A stretch of DNA of 24,469 nt from a virus. How positions within the stretch are numbered: position 1 is the first letter of the stretch; each line of letters opens with the position of its first letter. The position numbers and the translations under genes were made by a program. The stretch is from the IMG/VR virus record IMGVR_UViG_3300035145_001161, positions 1-24,469 of that record, one strand, 5' to 3'. Below are positions 4,324 to 19,664 of the stretch, in pieces. The notes under the pieces were generated by a model that saw only the letters and a list, made by a program, of their open reading frames with translations, was not told the origin of the DNA and did no database searches.

Positions 4324-4701
4324 ATGGAAAAGACAAAAACTTTTATAGAATACTTACAAGAGCAAGACTTCTCAAGCGATCAGTTGGAATCGTTAAATGA
4401 GTCTTTACAATCTGAATGGACACCTGAACTAGAAGCTAAAGTTGATGCAGCTTTAGAAGAATTCGTGAAGCAATATCAAAACGAAGATGGAAGCTACGAT
4501 ATAGAATCCTTTAATGTACAACTTACAAATGAAGGTCTATTTGGTTCTATTTTTGGAGGACTTACAGGATTTGCTTTAGGAAAGTCAGTTGGTAAAACAA
4601 TCGCTAAAGTACTAGGTGTACAAAAAGGCGTTATGTATGATATGTTAACCTCCCGATTAGTTGGTGCCGCTCTAGGTGCAGCTATCGGTTCTAAAATGTA
4701 A
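4324..4701 (+). CDS. Small protein with capsid-targeting-like N terminus and glycine-zipper tail
   Basis: A 125-residue protein. Residues 1-13 (MEKTKTFIEYLQE) match the capsid-targeting sequence of T4 internal proteins. Residues 14-66 are acidic and helical. From G71 the sequence becomes a glycine-zipper membrane-seeking region with repeated GxxxG (GLFGSIFGGLTGFALG, later GAALGAAIGSKM). A site fitting prohead-protease cleavage lies at L24-N25-E26/S27, and E70/G71 is a looser candidate exactly at the junction of the acidic and glycine-rich halves. I infer a head-packaged pro-peptide whose acidic half may be cut away to free a membrane-active segment; nothing proves this. It follows DUF1796 by 11 bases and precedes the RuvC-like gene by 3 bases. 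Confidence 0.6.
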   Translation: MEKTKTFIEYLQEQDFSSDQLESLNESLQSEWTPELEAKVDAALEEFVKQYQNEDGSYDIESFNVQLTNEGLFGSIFGGLTGFALGKSVGKTIAKVLGVQKGVMYDMLTSRLVGAALGAAIGSKM

Positions 4702-11174: not shown

Positions 11175-12455
11175 ATGAAAAAAATCCTATCATACAAAGA
11201 ATTTATAGTGGAAAGATATGACTCTTCGAAAGAAGAGTCCTCTCTTATTCTAGAAGGTGGTGCGGCAGGTCACATGGCTCACCCCTTTGACGATAATTCT
11301 TTGACTTTTGCAGATTTTAAAAGAATTGTAACAAGTGCTTTACAAGGTAAATTAGACTTTGAGCAGGCTCCTACTGAAAAGACGGATGGTCAAAACCTTT
11401 TTGCAAGTGTAAAAGACGGTAAAACAATTTTTTCAAGAAACAAAGGTCAATTGATCGCGCCTATAGGTTTGAAAGGAATCATTGAAATGTTTACTGACCA
11501 TAAGTCAGCCTTAGTTGAAGAAACTTATATTAAAGCAGCTAAAGACCTAGATTCTGCCCTTACTTCTTTAAAAGACCAATCTATGTTTAACGATGGAAAG
11601 TCATTTGTTAACATGGAAATTATCTTTACTAAGAATCCAAATGTAATAAACTATGATAGAGGAAATTTAATACAATTTCATAATATAGTTCATACTGACG
11701 GTCAAGGAAATATAATAGGTGAGGAGCAAAAGCTAGGAACTGAATTAGCTAAGGCCCTTCAGAAAATAAAGAAAGATGTTCAACAGACTTACACAATCAT
11801 CCCACCACAAATTTTAAGGATAGCCAAAGATGTTAACTTTGATGCCAGAGTAAATTACTACTATAAGAAAATAGATGCCTTAAGAGATACGTATAAGCTC
11901 ACAGACACTGATGAAGTTAAGATGTATCATGAAAAATGGTGGAGAAGTCAAATAGAATCCGAGTTTTCAGATATACCAACAGACGCCCAAGAAGGAATGT
12001 TGCTAAGATGGGCATACGGTGACAAGAAAACTCTCGACTTAAGAGCTGTTGCAAAGTTAGTTGATAAAGACCAGCTCAAAAGAATTAAAGAATTCGACAA
12101 AATATCAGGTAAGAAATATAAAGAAAACATTTTACCTTTTGAAAACTTATTTTTAGAATTAGGAGCTGATGTTCTTAAAAACGTTTCTAATTTTGTTGCT
12201 GCTAGTCCTGATGCAGAAAAGCAAAGACTACATAAACAGATTAGAACTGAATCTGAAAAGATAAAAAAGAACGGCGATCTAAGTCAAATAAATAAAGTAG
12301 AAAAAGAGTTAAAGAGACTCGAAAGCATCGGAGGAATTGAGTCCATAGTTCCTAGTGAAGGTGTAGTATTTAAATATAACGGAAAATTATTTAAACTCAC
12401 TGGAACGTTCGCTGCTATTAATCAACTAATGGGCATAATTAAATACGTAAGATAA
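11175..12455 (+). CDS. Nucleotidyltransferase/RNA-ligase-like protein with capsid-targeting-like N terminus
   Basis: 426 residues. Residues 1-13 (MKKILSYKEFIVE) match the T4 capsid-targeting sequence, and I25-L26-E27/G28 fits the prohead-protease site just before the conserved start of the folded part (GGAAGHMAHPFDD). Covalent nucleotidyltransferase motifs follow: motif I EKTDGQNLF (KxDG with the candidate adenylated lysine), SRNKGQ as motif Ia-like, FVNMEIIF as motif III-like, and near the C terminus EGVVFKYNG and KLFKLTG as motifs IV and V. The middle is a long helical insertion. Likely reaction: ATP-dependent adenylation of an RNA or DNA end, or of a protein; substrate unknown. If packaged, it would act at the start of infection. 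It lies 19 bases after the acidic gene. Confidence 0.65.
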   Translation: MKKILSYKEFIVERYDSSKEESSLILEGGAAGHMAHPFDDNSLTFADFKRIVTSALQGKLDFEQAPTEKTDGQNLFASVKDGKTIFSRNKGQLIAPIGLKGIIEMFTDHKSALVEETYIKAAKDLDSALTSLKDQSMFNDGKSFVNMEIIFTKNPNVINYDRGNLIQFHNIVHTDGQGNIIGEEQKLGTELAKALQKIKKDVQQTYTIIPPQILRIAKDVNFDARVNYYYKKIDALRDTYKLTDTDEVKMYHEKWWRSQIESEFSDIPTDAQEGMLLRWAYGDKKTLDLRAVAKLVDKDQLKRIKEFDKISGKKYKENILPFENLFLELGADVLKNVSNFVAASPDAEKQRLHKQIRTESEKIKKNGDLSQINKVEKELKRLESIGGIESIVPSEGVVFKYNGKLFKLTGTFAAINQLMGIIKYVR

Positions 12456-12761: not shown

Positions 12762-14627
12762 ATGGCTTTACAAAAACTAAGAGAGCATTTTCAAACATCT
12801 AACATTAACTCGTTTAATGATATGTTAAAGAATAGGGTGGTAGTTACTGAAAAAATTTCAGCACCTTCTTTTCATGTTAGAAGAACGTTTAATAAGTTTG
12901 AGTATTACAAGTCTGGTAAAGGTGAGGCCATGAATATGGTTGACAGAACCGTAGTTAAATTATATGAAGCGGGTGTAAAACACATACAGAGTTTAGACCC
13001 TTCTACTAAAGAAAAAATGCCAACTGATTGGAAGTTTGGTTTTGAATATCTACCTGAAAACAACATTTCAGAATTCCAATACGAAGAGCTTCCTAAAAAT
13101 TCTCTTATTTTAAATCACATTCAACAGATTGGAGCTAACGGCAAAGTAAAGAAGATTATTAGCGACCCTTCTGTTTTAAACAAGTGGGCAGATATTCTAG
13201 AAGTTCAAAGACCTAGTGTTATTTTTGATGGAATCTTAGATGAAAATCAAAAGAAAGAACTAGTAGAGTTATTATCAACTTCAGATTCTGAGTTTAATAA
13301 CTTATATGACTATGATATAAACACTGAGGCAAAAACTTCTTTTACAATGAAAGCCTTTAAGATGTTTGAAAAGGCTTCAACTAGAACAACCCTATGCAGT
13401 GATTTAGAAAAAGAAATAGACGGATTAGTTTTAACTTTTTCTGAAGGCGGTAGACTTAGGTCTTTTAAGCTTGAAGATTTTACGAGAAAGGTTAATGAAA
13501 ACAGAAGTTCAAGTCATATCTATCAGTTAACAATAACTGACATGTTAGAATACATGACAGTCTACGACCTTAGTAGCATTCAGCTTACCGAAGAATCAGC
13601 AGACTATAGGTATATGGAGTTAATGTCAGCCGTTTTCAACGAATACCTAAAAGAAAATTCAACTAAGTATATTGGTGTTAATTTTGAAAGCGCTGATTTT
13701 GCTGATTCAGATTCTTTCAGATTAAATACAAAATACATTAAGAATGAAACAACGTTAAAGTATGTTTCTAATCCTATTTTAGCGGAGTTATTTAAAATAA
13801 CATTAGGATCGTTTAGAAAGAAAAAATCAAAAACAAGCGATATATTAGATGAAGATATGATCGCCAGATTAAATGATATTGTTGAAAAGATAGAAACACT
13901 TGTTTTTGTAGAGAACACAGATAAAAATTCTATATACGATTTTAAAAACTATATGCTTCATAACAAAGTAAAGCAATCTACATTAAACGAAGCTCTTACG
14001 GTAAAGTATAAAGAACAAGGTAAAGAGCCTGTAAATATGTTTGTTGGTAGATTTCAACCATTCACATTAGGTCATGCCAAAGTATTAGAAACTATTCACA
14101 AACAAAATGGTTTTCCAGTTGTAGTTTTCTTAGTTAAGGCTAAGAATAAAAAGAAAGAAGATTCTTTTAAAAGACCTTATGACGAGGCAACTCAACTTAA
14201 AATGTTTAAAGCAGTTCAAAAGCAATATCCTTTCTTAAAAGAGATATACGTAATTCCAACGGCTGCAATTGATGTAATGTTTAATGAAATGAGACCAAAG
14301 TATGAGCCTGTATTATGGGGAACTGGTAGTGATAGAATGAAAGTTTACGGCTATCAGGTAAATAACGATAAGTATAGAGAAGACCTTGGTGTAAAAAGTG
14401 ATTTTGGACTATATGAAATTCCAAGAACAGATGATAACATTTCTGCTACTAAAGTTAGAAATGCAATGTTAGATGGAGATGAAAAGTCATTTAAAAAAAT
14501 GACACCAAAATCCCTTCATAAATTATATGGAGAGCTTAAGAAAAAATTAGAAGACTCAGTTAACTCATCAGAAGATGTGGAAATAAAAGAATCAGTTTTA
14601 ACCTTTAAACAATTTATTGAGAAGTAA
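12762..14627 (+). CDS. Fusion of RNA-ligase-like domain and NMN-adenylyltransferase-like domain
   Basis: 621 residues in two parts. The N-terminal part (about 1-250) has RNA-ligase-like motifs: VTEKISAPSFHV with K31 (T4 Rnl2: EKIHGTNFSI), FGFEYLPE as motif III-like, E218-IDGLVLTF as motif IV, and RSFKLEDF as motif V. A helical linker follows. Residues 424-600 are a cytidylyltransferase-like fold of NMNAT/NadR type: M426-FVGRFQPFTLGH-438 (GxFxPxTxGH), PVLWGTGSDR, and ISATKVRNAML (560-570). This domain would join NMN and ATP to NAD. The extreme C terminus SVLTFKQFIEK is a capsid-targeting-like motif in an unusual place. Its stop shares one base with the next start (TAATG). Domain calls are good; the combined function is unknown. 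Confidence 0.75.
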   Translation: MALQKLREHFQTSNINSFNDMLKNRVVVTEKISAPSFHVRRTFNKFEYYKSGKGEAMNMVDRTVVKLYEAGVKHIQSLDPSTKEKMPTDWKFGFEYLPENNISEFQYEELPKNSLILNHIQQIGANGKVKKIISDPSVLNKWADILEVQRPSVIFDGILDENQKKELVELLSTSDSEFNNLYDYDINTEAKTSFTMKAFKMFEKASTRTTLCSDLEKEIDGLVLTFSEGGRLRSFKLEDFTRKVNENRSSSHIYQLTITDMLEYMTVYDLSSIQLTEESADYRYMELMSAVFNEYLKENSTKYIGVNFESADFADSDSFRLNTKYIKNETTLKYVSNPILAELFKITLGSFRKKKSKTSDILDEDMIARLNDIVEKIETLVFVENTDKNSIYDFKNYMLHNKVKQSTLNEALTVKYKEQGKEPVNMFVGRFQPFTLGHAKVLETIHKQNGFPVVVFLVKAKNKKKEDSFKRPYDEATQLKMFKAVQKQYPFLKEIYVIPTAAIDVMFNEMRPKYEPVLWGTGSDRMKVYGYQVNNDKYREDLGVKSDFGLYEIPRTDDNISATKVRNAMLDGDEKSFKKMTPKSLHKLYGELKKKLEDSVNSSEDVEIKESVLTFKQFIEK

Positions 14628-15631
14628 TGGATAGGTATAATTTTGAGAGAGCAATAAACGATGTGCTTAACGAAAACGCACACAGTAGTGTTGGTAGTTG
14701 GTTATCTTTAGCTCAACAAACTAACGTACAATCTAAACAGATGTTGTATGATAGAATTAACAAGGAGTTGTTTAATGGAAAACCACCCTATCCAAAAAGA
14801 TTAAAGCTTTCTAAATTTGATGCCTCATCATTTAAAACAGTATATTCTTATTTAAAGAAGAATAAAAAGGCAATGAATGAGCTTTTCAAACAAAAAATTC
14901 AGGGTATTGGCGCTGGAGAAATAATGTTAGCCTATATTGTTGAAAACCTAACAGTAGGTGGAGGAAGTGCTACGGTTGATTTAAATCTATTCAACGATAA
15001 CGGAACAGTATTTGACGAATGTGAGTTGAAGGAGGCTAAATTAACAGGAGCTGGTTTCTTAGAAGGATGGCAGCTAGGAGCAAATCACGCTAAATTGTCT
15101 ATTAAAACTATAGATGATTTTAAAGCACTATATAATGAGGTTAAATTTCAAGTACCTGCATTAGACCCTAATACAGATTCAGGAAAAGAATTAGCAGATG
15201 GATTTACATCTGGTGAATGGGGAACGGCTCCCGATGGAAAAAGATTTAGACACCTATCTGCAATCAAAGAAATTCCTATAGGTCAAGATAGAGAATTTAA
15301 ATTAGGACCTGGCCCTAATGGAGAAATTACAGTTAAGTATAACGAAGAACTCCTAGGAAATTTAAGTGATAGTAAAACAGTTGATAAGATAAAAGCGGCT
15401 CTTGCAGCTAAAGCTAGTTCCAAGGTAAAAACATTCGATCAGATACACACTGAACTAATAAAGAGCATGGGAGCAATTAAAGAAAAGTTTTTATTTATTT
15501 CAACTAAAGGTCCATCAGGAGGTAAAACTATACAAAACTTTTACTTTAAGAAAAATCTTCCTGGAACAACTGATAAATTACAACTACATTCTATCACCCT
15601 AAACAAATGTAAGTTTAGAGTTAAGGCATAA
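14627..15631 (+). CDS. PD-(D/E)XK-like putative nuclease or structural protein
   Basis: 334 residues, translationally coupled to the fusion gene by TAATG. Residues 91-138 contain IQGIGAGEIMLAYIVENL (G97-E98), then TVDLNLF with D118, and ECELKEAK with E133-L134-K135. The order GE...D...ExK is that of restriction-endonuclease-like folds, and phage proteins with a GxGE helix before the core are common. The rest is basic and shows no transmembrane segment. The N terminus (RYNFERAINDVLNE) loosely recalls the capsid-targeting motif but is not a clear match. Possible roles are DNA nicking or cleavage of host or modified DNA, if the fold is right; alternatively a virion protein that merely resembles it. 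Confidence 0.5.
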   Translation: MDRYNFERAINDVLNENAHSSVGSWLSLAQQTNVQSKQMLYDRINKELFNGKPPYPKRLKLSKFDASSFKTVYSYLKKNKKAMNELFKQKIQGIGAGEIMLAYIVENLTVGGGSATVDLNLFNDNGTVFDECELKEAKLTGAGFLEGWQLGANHAKLSIKTIDDFKALYNEVKFQVPALDPNTDSGKELADGFTSGEWGTAPDGKRFRHLSAIKEIPIGQDREFKLGPGPNGEITVKYNEELLGNLSDSKTVDKIKAALAAKASSKVKTFDQIHTELIKSMGAIKEKFLFISTKGPSGGKTIQNFYFKKNLPGTTDKLQLHSITLNKCKFRVKA

Positions 15632-15657: not shown

Positions 15658-18165
15658 ATGAAAAAAGTAACCACATTTGAAAATTTTCTTAACGAAAGGT
15701 CAATTAATAAAATATCTAAAGACCTAGAAGCTGTTGCGAATAAAATGGTAAAGACTGTTGGTGAGTGGAAGACTGCCAAAGGTGATAAAAAAGCTGAGCT
15801 TTTAGAAGTACTTAGAGAACTTAATAAAGAAAAGGCCGAGTTAGAAAAAGAATTAGATTCTGCAGTTGCAGGAAAAGATAGAAATATACAGCTCATTCTT
15901 ACTGAAGAAGTAGAAGCTGAAGCTCACTTCGAGAATGAAGTTAGAGATATATTAGATGAAGCTAGATATAACAAGAAAAAGTTATTAAAAGCAATCAAGA
16001 ATAAGGACGACATGTTCATTCAGTTAGGAGACGGTACTGAACTAATAGTTTACAATCCAGACTCTAACAATAAAGATAATGCAGAGATGTGGCATGATGA
16101 TGTTGTATTTGCAGTCGACCAAGACGGAGAAGAGCATGAAGTTAAATACTCAGATATTGCAGGTATTGGTGAATCTCTAGTTACTGAAGGTAAAAGAGAC
16201 AATAATAAAGTAACTACTGCTTGGAAAAAAACAGGTGTTACTGACTTACCTTCAATCGCTAAAATGTATGCTGACGCAATGGAAGATGCAAACTTCCATA
16301 GAGAAATTCCAACTTCTAAAGCGATTGGCGCAGCTTCTAAAGCAAAGGTAAAGCAACTAGGAGATATGTATACTGCTATTTCTCAAGCAGCAGGTTGGAG
16401 TGGATATGCTATTGCAAACGGTACAGTACAATACTTAAAACATATTGGTGAAGAAGGTGCTGCATCTAAGTTATTAAAAGCTATCACTAAATACGATTTA
16501 AATGAATCACTTAATGAAAGAAGGATTCAAATTAAAAGAAAATATACTGAAAATCATCCAGCACTTACAGCTGGTAAAACAGCAAGAGTTAGAAATAAAA
16601 TTTTAGAATACATTTCTGACGGCAAGCTTACACAAGACGAGTTTAATAAAATTCTATCTGAACTTTCATTAGATTCTAAAAGATGGTTAAAGAGAAATCA
16701 AAAATACTTTAACGTATCAGAAGAAGGTATCAGTCTTTCAAAATTTGGAAAGAGAATTTTAAAAGGAATTACAATTAACGAAAATCAAAACACAAAAGAT
16801 ATGAAAATCTTTACAGCATTTAAAGATTACTTACTTGAATCAGAATCAGTTGATGAAAAATACAAGATAAGTAAATCAGGAACAAAAAAAGCAGCTGAGC
16901 TTTTAATGAAAGCCCTAACTAAGGTTGATAAGTCTGACTTTGAAATCACTAAAGGTTCTTTAGAAGAAGGTGGATTTGACCTTGACCAAGATGACGTTGA
17001 ATTTGACGGAGGTTCTTATTTTATTGGCGATAACGGTGAAATAGTTAATGCAGCAGACGGTATGAAAATATACGGCAACGTTGAAGATTCAGTAAACGAT
17101 ATCGTTAAGAATCTAAAGTCAGGTAAGATGGAAATCTATGAGTCGGTTGAAGAGTCTTATGATATGTTATTAGAGGCTATTAAGTCTACTAAGTTGGCAA
17201 GAATCATGCAGATGTCAAATGATAAAGACCTTTTTAAGAAAGTTTATCAAATGTCAAAAACTCCTATTGATAAAATTGGAGATGAGAACATTTCTGAAAT
17301 GGACCCTGAAAAAGCGTATAAAGAAAAGTATGATACTAATGATGTTATCATATTCTATATCTCTACTAGAGAGAAGGAAAATCCATATAAAACAGACCAT
17401 GGCTACAACATTCCAGCTAACGCAATTATAGGTGTTACTGATGGTAATAGAAAAATCTATGAACCTGTGTATAAGCAATGGGACGCTGACCCAGATTATT
17501 CTAAAGGTAGAAAACCCGAGTCAAGAAGAGGACGTAGAGGAGTATATTCAATGTCAGCTAAAGAAAGATACCCTAAATCAGGTGCTAGCTCACCGGGTTC
17601 TAAGATAAATTTACAGGGAAGTTGGAGCTTTAACTTAGGAAACGCTAAGAGAATTGCTTCTGTTTCTGATGTTGCTTATGTTATTTGGCTTTCAGCTGTT
17701 CCAAGTGCTACGCCATTAAGAGATGAAAGAGCAAAAGCAAAAGAAGGTGCTATAGCATTCGAACATCCAAATGATTTTAAGAAAGCTAACATCGACAGGT
17801 ATAGAAGTATCTTAGCTAAAAGAGCTGATAAGCCAGAAAAAATCGACAAAGATGTTGAAAAAACAGTTGAAGCAGCTCATAAATTATTTGCTGACGCATT
17901 TAAAAAGAAGGAGATGAATCAGTATGGTTATCTTGTAGTTGGTAAAGACCCTAGAGGTAGAGATGTTACCGCTAGAGATGTAACTAGTTTTGTTTCAAGT
18001 CTTATGGATGATTGGCAAAGATATTCTGAATATCATTCAAATGCAAAGAAAGAAGAAGAACAAGGTAGAGGTGGAAGTAGCTACTATAAAAAAGAAGCTA
18101 AGTCTTACGCTTTATCAATCAAGAAAAGATTGAATAAATTTGCTAAAATGGATATTGCTTGGTAA
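15658..18165 (+). CDS. 835-residue multi-module protein, candidate packaged polyprotein
   Basis: Residues 1-13 (MKKVTTFENFLNE) match the capsid-targeting motif. Residues 17-75 are a coiled coil. A second, complete copy of the motif starts with an internal Met at residue 382 (MKIFTAFKDYLLE), as if two packaged genes had fused. Sites fitting the prohead-protease rule fall at module borders: V175-T176-E177/G178, L392-L393-E394/S395 and L504-L505-E506/A507. The C-terminal module (507-835; TKLARIMQMSNDKDLFKKVY, RIASVSDVAYVIWL, EGAIAF, VGKDPRGRDVTARD) is of a type I associate with uncharacterised T4-like marine phage proteins. No catalytic motif is recognised. It could release several injected proteins or be a large internal head protein. 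It ends in a TAATG overlap. Confidence 0.6.
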   Translation: MKKVTTFENFLNERSINKISKDLEAVANKMVKTVGEWKTAKGDKKAELLEVLRELNKEKAELEKELDSAVAGKDRNIQLILTEEVEAEAHFENEVRDILDEARYNKKKLLKAIKNKDDMFIQLGDGTELIVYNPDSNNKDNAEMWHDDVVFAVDQDGEEHEVKYSDIAGIGESLVTEGKRDNNKVTTAWKKTGVTDLPSIAKMYADAMEDANFHREIPTSKAIGAASKAKVKQLGDMYTAISQAAGWSGYAIANGTVQYLKHIGEEGAASKLLKAITKYDLNESLNERRIQIKRKYTENHPALTAGKTARVRNKILEYISDGKLTQDEFNKILSELSLDSKRWLKRNQKYFNVSEEGISLSKFGKRILKGITINENQNTKDMKIFTAFKDYLLESESVDEKYKISKSGTKKAAELLMKALTKVDKSDFEITKGSLEEGGFDLDQDDVEFDGGSYFIGDNGEIVNAADGMKIYGNVEDSVNDIVKNLKSGKMEIYESVEESYDMLLEAIKSTKLARIMQMSNDKDLFKKVYQMSKTPIDKIGDENISEMDPEKAYKEKYDTNDVIIFYISTREKENPYKTDHGYNIPANAIIGVTDGNRKIYEPVYKQWDADPDYSKGRKPESRRGRRGVYSMSAKERYPKSGASSPGSKINLQGSWSFNLGNAKRIASVSDVAYVIWLSAVPSATPLRDERAKAKEGAIAFEHPNDFKKANIDRYRSILAKRADKPEKIDKDVEKTVEAAHKLFADAFKKKEMNQYGYLVVGKDPRGRDVTARDVTSFVSSLMDDWQRYSEYHSNAKKEEEQGRGGSSYYKKEAKSYALSIKKRLNKFAKMDIAW

Positions 18166-18975: not shown

Positions 18976-19236
18976 ATGCTTATTAACCTCAGACCTGATA
19001 ATTATTTAGCGTGGGCGCCGGCTGCAATTGAGAAAATAGAAAGAACTATAAACTCATGTGAAACAGTAAGGCAGTTAAAAATGGCTAAAAAAATGGTTGA
19101 CAATTTTATTGTGGTTAGTATAATGGAAGAGGATTCTAATGACGAAGATATTCAATGGATAAGTCATCAGCTCTGGTTAAGAGTTAAAATTCAAGAAATA
19201 AATCTAAAACAATGGACACCAGAAAAGGTACAATAG
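18976..19236 (+). CDS. 86-residue hypothetical protein
   Basis: A small, largely helical protein (NLRPDNYLAWAPAAIEKIER, then VRQLKMAKKMVDNFIV and a Trp-containing C terminus ISHQLWLRVKIQEINLKQW). No family is recognised and no membrane segment or metal motif is visible. It overlaps the cytidylyltransferase gene by 25 bases, so the two are probably co-translated. The overlap and good coding composition support a real gene. Confidence 0.6.
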   Translation: MLINLRPDNYLAWAPAAIEKIERTINSCETVRQLKMAKKMVDNFIVVSIMEEDSNDEDIQWISHQLWLRVKIQEINLKQWTPEKVQ

Positions 19237-19664
19237 GATTTACGGCGGGTAACTTTGACCTACTACACCCAGGTTATATTTACACGTTTGAAACGGCAAA
19301 GAAACACTGTGACTATTTCATGGTATTTTTACAAGAGGACCCTTCAGAAACAAGGTATACCAAATATAAACCTGTAATTCCTCTTTATGAAAGATATAAA
19401 ACTTTAATGGCAATCGAGTATGTTGATGAGGTTGTTACTTATCAAACAGAAGAAGACCTTTTAAAGTTAATTGAATTCTATAAACCAGACATTAGAATTC
19501 TTGGAGATGATTACATAGGTAAGAGATTTACGGGTGACCATCTTCCAATTGAGGTAATTTATACAACACGATCTCACGATTGGTCAACGACCAGAATAAA
19601 AGATTTGATTACTCTTCAAACTCTTAAGCAGAATCCTGAGATTATTAAACGATTAGATAAATGA
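19212..19664 (+). CDS. Cytidylyltransferase-like nucleotidyltransferase (TagD/HldE-C type)
   Basis: 150 residues of the small Rossmann-like nucleotidyltransferase fold that joins CTP or ATP to a phosphorylated sugar or polyol. The HxGH region is TAGNFDLLHPGY (H19-P-G-Y22), so the second histidine is replaced by tyrosine. The second signature S125-TTRIKD is intact, as are the ERYKTLMAIEYVDEVV and DIRILGDDYI segments typical of glycerol-3-phosphate cytidylyltransferase relatives. It overlaps the rmlB-like gene by four bases, so both may serve one sugar-nucleotide pathway. Activity is uncertain because of the H-to-Y change, although relatives with HPGY may exist in phages. The substrate cannot be inferred. 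Confidence 0.75.
   Translation: MDTRKGTIGFTAGNFDLLHPGYIYTFETAKKHCDYFMVFLQEDPSETRYTKYKPVIPLYERYKTLMAIEYVDEVVTYQTEEDLLKLIEFYKPDIRILGDDYIGKRFTGDHLPIEVIYTTRSHDWSTTRIKDLITLQTLKQNPEIIKRLDK

Follow-up and report, generated by a model that had tools for sequence, protein, structure and literature searches.

Why a phage would join a ligase-like fold to a nicotinamide mononucleotide (NMN) adenylyltransferase (NMNAT)-like domain in a single polypeptide is the question raised by a gene in the virus record IMGVR_UViG_3300035145_001161. The stretch of DNA analyzed, hereafter the window, is a 24-kb fragment of 24,469 nucleotides. The gene opens with ATG at position 12762, and its product of 621 amino acids (aa), hereafter the fusion, is uninterrupted in many relatives from IMG/VR, with best-segment identities of ~48-88%; a homologue with 32% identity across 96% of the length is encoded by the 462-kb phage LR756500. 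The answer proposed here, to which we give an even chance, is that the fusion is an ejection protein of two domains, packaged in the virion and working together with the product of the neighboring gene, LigA. Judging from sequence motifs and fold models, the most economical form of this answer would be an ejected ligase and NMN-adenylyltransferase module that acts early on nucleic-acid breaks. The features of the fusion, all on the plus strand, are:

12762-14627, +, fusion protein, 621 aa: ligase-fold region (residues 1-400), linker, NMNAT-like domain (419-599) and capsid-targeting-like C-terminal tail
12762-13961, +, predicted RNA-ligase-fold domain, residues 1-400
12849-12869, +, motif I, EKISAPS, with the codon of K31 at 12852-12854
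13413-13433, +, motif IV, EIDGLVL, from the sequence alignment
13467-13469, +, motif V lysine K236 (SFKLEDF)
14016-14558, +, NMNAT-like domain, residues 419-599
14046-14075, +, GRFQPFTLGH, the (H/T)xGH signature, every position except L invariant in nine aligned relatives
14439-14459, +, ISATKVR, the ISxTxxR signature, from the alignment of relatives
14583-14591, +, IKE, a possible prohead-protease site (h-x-E, a sequence motif) before the tail
14601-14624, +, TFKQFIEK, the motif of the C-terminal tail that resembles a capsid-targeting sequence (CTS)

A predicted RNA-ligase fold joined to an NMNAT-like domain

The ligase half of the fusion has no family match in Pfam, PHROG or NCBIfam; in particular, the RNA_ligase profile PF09414 does not match the fusion at E ≤ 1, and a sequence-profile search of the PDB with the alignment of this domain returned no ligase. 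The AlphaFold2 model of residues 1-400, built from a 59-sequence alignment (predicted local distance difference test (pLDDT) 88.5, predicted template modeling score 0.83), contains the nucleotidyltransferase (ligase) core for which the earlier note, drawn up from the sequence alone, had called for structure prediction. T4 RNA ligase 2 (Rnl2) is the first match in a Foldseek search with this model (E 1.2e-7), and all top 38 PDB matches are polynucleotide ligases, with 2hvr, 2hvq and 8uce among the top hits. An RNA-ligase fold is thus predicted for this half with good confidence. Motif I of the fusion family, EK-[ILV]-x-[GAP]-x-[ST]-[FL], is a relaxed form of KxDG, and the canonical-looking EKIDGSSF persists in some relatives. 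The motif I lysine, K31, is present in 57 of the 59 aligned homologues (N in one and Q in one) and K236 in 52 of 59, with the acids of motifs III and IV being variable (E/D/Q and E/D/P, respectively). Retention of K31 in nearly all homologues disfavors the possibility that the domain is a pseudo-ligase in all fusions.

The NMNAT-like half is readily recognized, with matches above the curated cut-offs to Pfam CTP_transf_like (3.2e-8) and NCBIfam TIGR00125. In a PDB-profile search with this domain, NMN adenylyltransferases rank before phosphopantetheine adenylyltransferases, and the closest solved relative is the archaeal NMNAT MJ0541 (E 2.2e-7). Both signatures of the HIGH-superfamily nucleotidyltransferases, (H/T)xGH and ISxTxxR, are present, and GRFQPFTxGH, a GxDR motif and ISAxxVR are retained in 9/9 aligned relatives. 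By these sequence criteria, an NMNAT-like adenylyltransferase that has kept its active-site motifs occupies residues 419-599. The motifs quoted in the earlier note (EKISAPSFHV with K31, EIDGLVLTF, RSFKLEDF, GRFQPFTLGH and ISATKVRN) lie where they were placed, and its description of the gene as a ligase-like/NMNAT-like fusion holds because the second half has the above profile matches in Pfam and NCBIfam and the first has a fold model that matches Rnl2 best; the note overlooked the adjoining LigA gene and the recurrent pairing of ligase-like and NMNAT-like genes in other phages. Fold search and conservation together rule out chance motifs.

LigA and the recurrent ligase-NMNAT pairing

Directly upstream of the fusion, a second covalent-nucleotidyltransferase-like protein is encoded:

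11175-12455, +, LigA, 426 aa
11175-11213, +, N-terminal CTS-like motif of LigA, MKKILSYKEFIVE
11379-11381, +, motif I lysine of LigA, K69

LigA has no significant match in Pfam, PHROG or NCBIfam, and no ligase was returned by a PDB sequence-profile search with its alignment. This alignment (n=65) shows the expected ligase motifs in invariant form, namely E-K-x-D-G-x-N, R-N, E148, E-G-x-V-F and K407-x-T-G, with K69 present in 65/65 sequences. The motifs are more conserved in LigA than in the fused ligase domain, and LigA, unlike the fused domain in distant huge phages, retains the lysine wherever it is present. On the basis of these motifs and the fold model, LigA is probably a covalent nucleotidyltransferase. 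One relative has an insertion of ~0.8 kb that divides LigA in two (L005 508-1005 and 1810-3012).

Among 70 non-redundant LigA loci, the ligase-NMNAT fusion follows LigA in 37, and in five the gene after LigA encodes only the ligase domain, with an NMNAT-like gene coming next in three of these (L019, L159 and L164). In a further 18, that is, in at least 18 non-redundant lineages, the NMNAT-like domain is fused to LigA itself; seven of the remaining 10 LigA genes sit at the end of the locus. Two named phages carry the NMNAT-LigA fusion: Microcystis phage Mel-JY01, near terminase, portal-like and prohead protease genes, and the huge phage LR756508. A comparable arrangement is seen in many cyanophage genomes, where the gene directly upstream of an NMNAT-like 'cytidyltransferase' encodes DUF6267, which has the motifs KxDG, EGxV and K; the PHROG 455 profile extends over both genes. 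In Xanthomonas phage X1 and Stenotrophomonas phage Ps15, too, a KxDG-bearing gene directly precedes the NMNAT-like gene. The linkage is not absolute: DUF6267 is located elsewhere in ACG-2014f, S-SM2 and S-CREM1, and in S-CREM2 the NMNAT-like gene is preceded by a sigma factor gene.

Capsid-targeting-like motifs and probable packaging

In the T4 capsid-targeting sequence, positions 4 and 7 are involved in targeting and positions 8 and 10 in processing, and the gp21 protease cuts after L/I-x-E (PMC9026906). The 'targeting-like C terminus' of the earlier note proves to be a T4-CTS-like motif with aromatic residues at positions 4 and 7, conserved in 68/69 distinct C termini of the fusion, none of these 68 having the processing glutamate at position 10; since the sequences are related, this count and those below measure conservation and not independent events. 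Shuffling the proteins of the window 500 times gave no match to the C-terminal motif. In 57/68 relatives of the fusion, an h-x-E motif precedes the tail motif by no more than 32 aa. Plausibly, the tail is a C-terminal targeting signal, and any cleavage that removes it would take place further upstream. The corresponding motif of LigA is N-terminal and was found in 66/66 distinct N termini in a scan that accepted L besides aromatics at position 4; position 10 is E in 49 of these and D in six.

Two other genes of the window encode putative packaged proteins with N-terminal CTS-like motifs:

4324-4701, +, small protein (MEKTKTFIEYLQEQ)
15658-18165, +, 835-aa protein (MKKVTTFENFLNERS)

Altogether, the window contains three N-terminal matches to the T4 CTS spacing against 0.02 expected, and none of 500 shuffles reaches three; the 179-kb relative G001 has eight genes with such a motif against 0.15 expected, and none of 500 shuffles reaches eight. 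Random matches are thereby ruled out. A gp21-type prohead protease (Peptidase_S77) is encoded in seven of the eight large relatives examined; the 24-kb window lacks it. Presence in the virion is reported for cyanophage NMNAT-like proteins only: those of S-CBWM1, S-SZBM1, S-SCSM1 and S-CREM2 have been detected by mass spectrometry (PMC10665884, PMC9602691, PMC9146016), and the two checked, from S-SZBM1 and S-CREM2, start with the CTS-like motifs MRFRQFIIEA and MKNFSSFLTEA. Packaging of the fusion in the capsid, which the earlier note had entertained as a condition, appears well supported by these sequence features and by analogy with the cyanophage proteins.

Two observations concern the packaged proteins themselves. 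In the clade of the window, the gp21-like protease domain lies within open frames of 606-831 aa (L201-L206); as these exceed the 207 aa of G008, the protease and another head protein may be fused here. In L019-L023 and L232, the NMNAT-like protein opens with the CTS-like motif NDLNNFLNEKK and contains a domain shared with the window ORF 15658-18165, which suggests exchange of parts among capsid-targeted proteins. L232 (DIAL01000117), the sole match among bacterial genome contigs, is 3.8 kb long and belongs to a Flavobacteriaceae metagenome-assembled genome; it is probably a phage fragment and gives a hint of the host.

Proposed function and alternatives

The elements available from computation are the ligase fold of the fused domain, the LigA motifs, the NMNAT-like domain, the CTS-like motifs, the pairing and the protease of the relatives. 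From these, we infer a sequence of events in which the domains act jointly and RNA is the substrate. First, the two proteins would be synthesized together with other capsid-targeted proteins, the fusion entering the prohead core via its C-terminal tail and LigA via its N-terminal tag. Second, the gp21-type protease would trim LigA after the tag and may cut the fusion at the h-x-E before the tail. Third, LigA and the fusion would be ejected together with the DNA. Fourth, in the infected cell, the NMNAT-like domain would convert NMN and ATP into nicotinamide adenine dinucleotide (NAD+), and the ligase folds, forming a lysyl-AMP on LigA at K69 and probably on the fusion at K31, would reseal nucleic-acid breaks caused by host defenses. 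The breaks would most likely be in RNA because Rnl2 is the closest fold.

Several results weigh against this scheme. The NMN specificity of the NMNAT-like domain is putative, and its match to the archaeal NMNAT model TIGR01527 (7.6e-9, 35.3 bits) is below the equivalog cut-off of 181.2. The LigA model (pLDDT 87) matches RNA/DNA ligases first but weakly, with a best E of 9e-3. Comparison of LigA with DUF6267 (PF19782, phrog_455) by hhalign gave a probability of 23% over the motif IV-V region only, the same kind of comparison did not support homology of the fused ligase domain with LigA, and a PDB sequence-profile search with the DUF6267 alignment returned no ligase. Accordingly, a single family comprising LigA, DUF6267 and the fused ligase domain is unsupported, and because profile comparison does not unite the three, the recurrent pairing may be convergent. 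With respect to packaging, the authors of the cyanophage studies caution that the virion detections may be carry-over, and no gene of G008, a 157-kb relative with the NMNAT-LigA fusion, shows a CTS-like motif, so that packaging there would rest on gene context alone. Finally, the motif I lysine of the fused ligase is replaced by N in the L009/L158 lineage and by Q in L153; the homologues of huge phages, L024-L028, have N or D in its place.

These losses, together with the variable acids of motifs III and IV, are the argument for the best surviving, even if unlikely, alternative, in which NMNAT is the only enzyme, the ligase fold serves as a nucleic-acid-binding or packaging scaffold, and the fusion chiefly restores NAD+. 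The retention of K31 and K236 in most homologues is hard to explain without catalysis, and LigA retains all its motifs. Because the lysines are mostly kept yet lost in some lineages, the fused ligase domain, as far as the alignment can indicate, is probably active in the phage of the window but is not under universal constraint for activity.

NAD+-dependent ligation yields NMN as a by-product, and activities of exactly these two kinds are repeatedly fused or adjacent. This brings up a self-regenerating ligase, in which LigA would take AMP from NAD+, freeing NMN, and the NMNAT domain would rebuild NAD+ with ATP. NAD+-dependent ligases are described in PMC9503650. Pfam, however, recognized no NAD+-ligase Ia-type domain in LigA, and the fold searches with both ligase domains put ATP-dependent enzymes first, direct ATP use being simpler; this alternative has a distinctly small chance of being correct.

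The covalent nucleotidyltransferases also include capping enzymes. Hence the pair might transfer AMP, NAD or NMN to RNA 5' ends or to host proteins, comparable to the use of NAD by T4 Alt and ModB, and phages do package NAD-using effectors (PMC9503650). The absence of any capping-enzyme or ADP-ribosyltransferase match, and the nick-sealing RNA ligase as the closest fold, leave little room for such a role. Least credible of all is a purely structural role in the head core, in which the enzyme folds would be vestigial and the proteins, packaged in bulk, non-catalytic. This view accommodates the CTS-like motifs and their presence in several unrelated proteins of the region but is at odds with the catalytic motifs, which, despite large divergence, do not vary in LigA and hardly vary in the NMNAT domain.

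Within the preferred reading, the packaged ligase and NMNAT-like pair, the more specific role advanced in the earlier note, repair of cleaved tRNA combined with rescue of NAD, is possible, on sequence evidence, but weakened because G003 and G004 already encode conventional Rnl1, Rnl2 and NadV, and G002 carries an Rnl2-type ligase. NadV (PF04095) was seen in two of the eight relatives, with six lacking it on contigs that may be partial; a NadV-based NAD salvage system is rejected accordingly. If the pair is indeed packaged, it would precede phage gene expression, at the time when host defenses strike first, and would link NAD metabolism to nucleic-acid repair at the start of infection, a testable connection. 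A wider generalization, on balance rather doubtful, is that T4-like and huge phages share an unrecognized, widespread virion-delivered module in which an NMNAT-like enzyme is coupled to ligase-type nucleotidyltransferases including LigA, NAD+/NMN chemistry and end joining forming one pathway in the first minutes of infection. A recurrent ligase and NMNAT-like pair tagged for the capsid would provide a function for two unannotated families, LigA and DUF6267, and a reason for the repeated occurrence of NMNAT-like proteins in cyanophage virions.

Relation to known systems

NMNAT-like proteins in virions are known, and so, separately, are RNA ligases of phages. The open-access literature searched contained no report of a ligase-NMNAT fusion, of the LigA family, of repeated pairing or of a CTS-like tail at the C terminus, nor any paper on DUF6267, and there is a credible case that the functional module is new. 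T4 Rnl2 (PF09414) resembles residues 1-400 in the fold, the EK-type motif I, the (E/D)G-type motif IV and the motif V lysine, whereas the fusion differs in the relaxed motif I, the lack of a Pfam match, the NMNAT-like partner domain and the capsid tag; a conventional Rnl2 coexists with the fusion in some relatives. The archaeal/NadM-type NMNATs (TIGR01527, MJ0541), the closest solved relatives, share GRFQPF(T/H)xGH and ISxTxxR with the fusion, but the partner domains in NadM and NadR are Nudix or kinase rather than ligase-like, and the fusion remains below the equivalog cut-off. The cyanophage 'cytidyltransferase' (phrog_395), which is seen in virions of several cyanophages and has an N-terminal CTS-like motif, likewise directly follows a KxDG-bearing gene, that of DUF6267 (PF19782, phrog_455); in the cyanophages examined, however, the two are separate genes. 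The T4 internal proteins IPI-III and Alt show the same motif spacing, [FY]xx[FY][ILV]xE, and a gp21-type protease is similarly present in the relatives; unlike in these proteins, the motif of the fusion is C-terminal and lacks the processing Glu, that of LigA being N-terminal. The tail of the fusion hints that the capsid-targeting signal also exists in a C-terminal form. Phage NAD+ salvage by NadV with NadM or NadR (PMC9503650) has a phage-borne NMNAT-like enzyme in common with the systems described here, which differ in the lack of NadV in most relatives, in capsid targeting and in the ligase partners.

Other genes of the region and its relatives

A D...(E/S)xK pattern, noticed by eye and reminiscent of PD-(D/E)XK nucleases, occurs at 14627-15631 of the window, in neighboring genes or fused domains of several other loci (L019 6474-9701, L029 2138-3142, L030 2285-3229, L032 2593-3768), in cyanophage phrog_1462 and in Xanthomonas/Stenotrophomonas neighbors; as there is no nuclease family match, a conserved nuclease partner is not claimed. 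The cluster of Xanthomonas phage X1 includes a possible Pol-beta-type nucleotidyltransferase (GDIDI; L029 1128-2138). In L006 (640-1623 and 5898-6833), and also in L007 and L011, uvsW is in two halves 1.4-4.3 kb apart, possibly because of an intron or intein. The window itself encodes a second HIGH-superfamily nucleotidyltransferase at 19212-19664 (CTP_transf_like, 1.3e-13), followed by an epimerase/dehydratase-like ORF, both probably involved in sugar metabolism.
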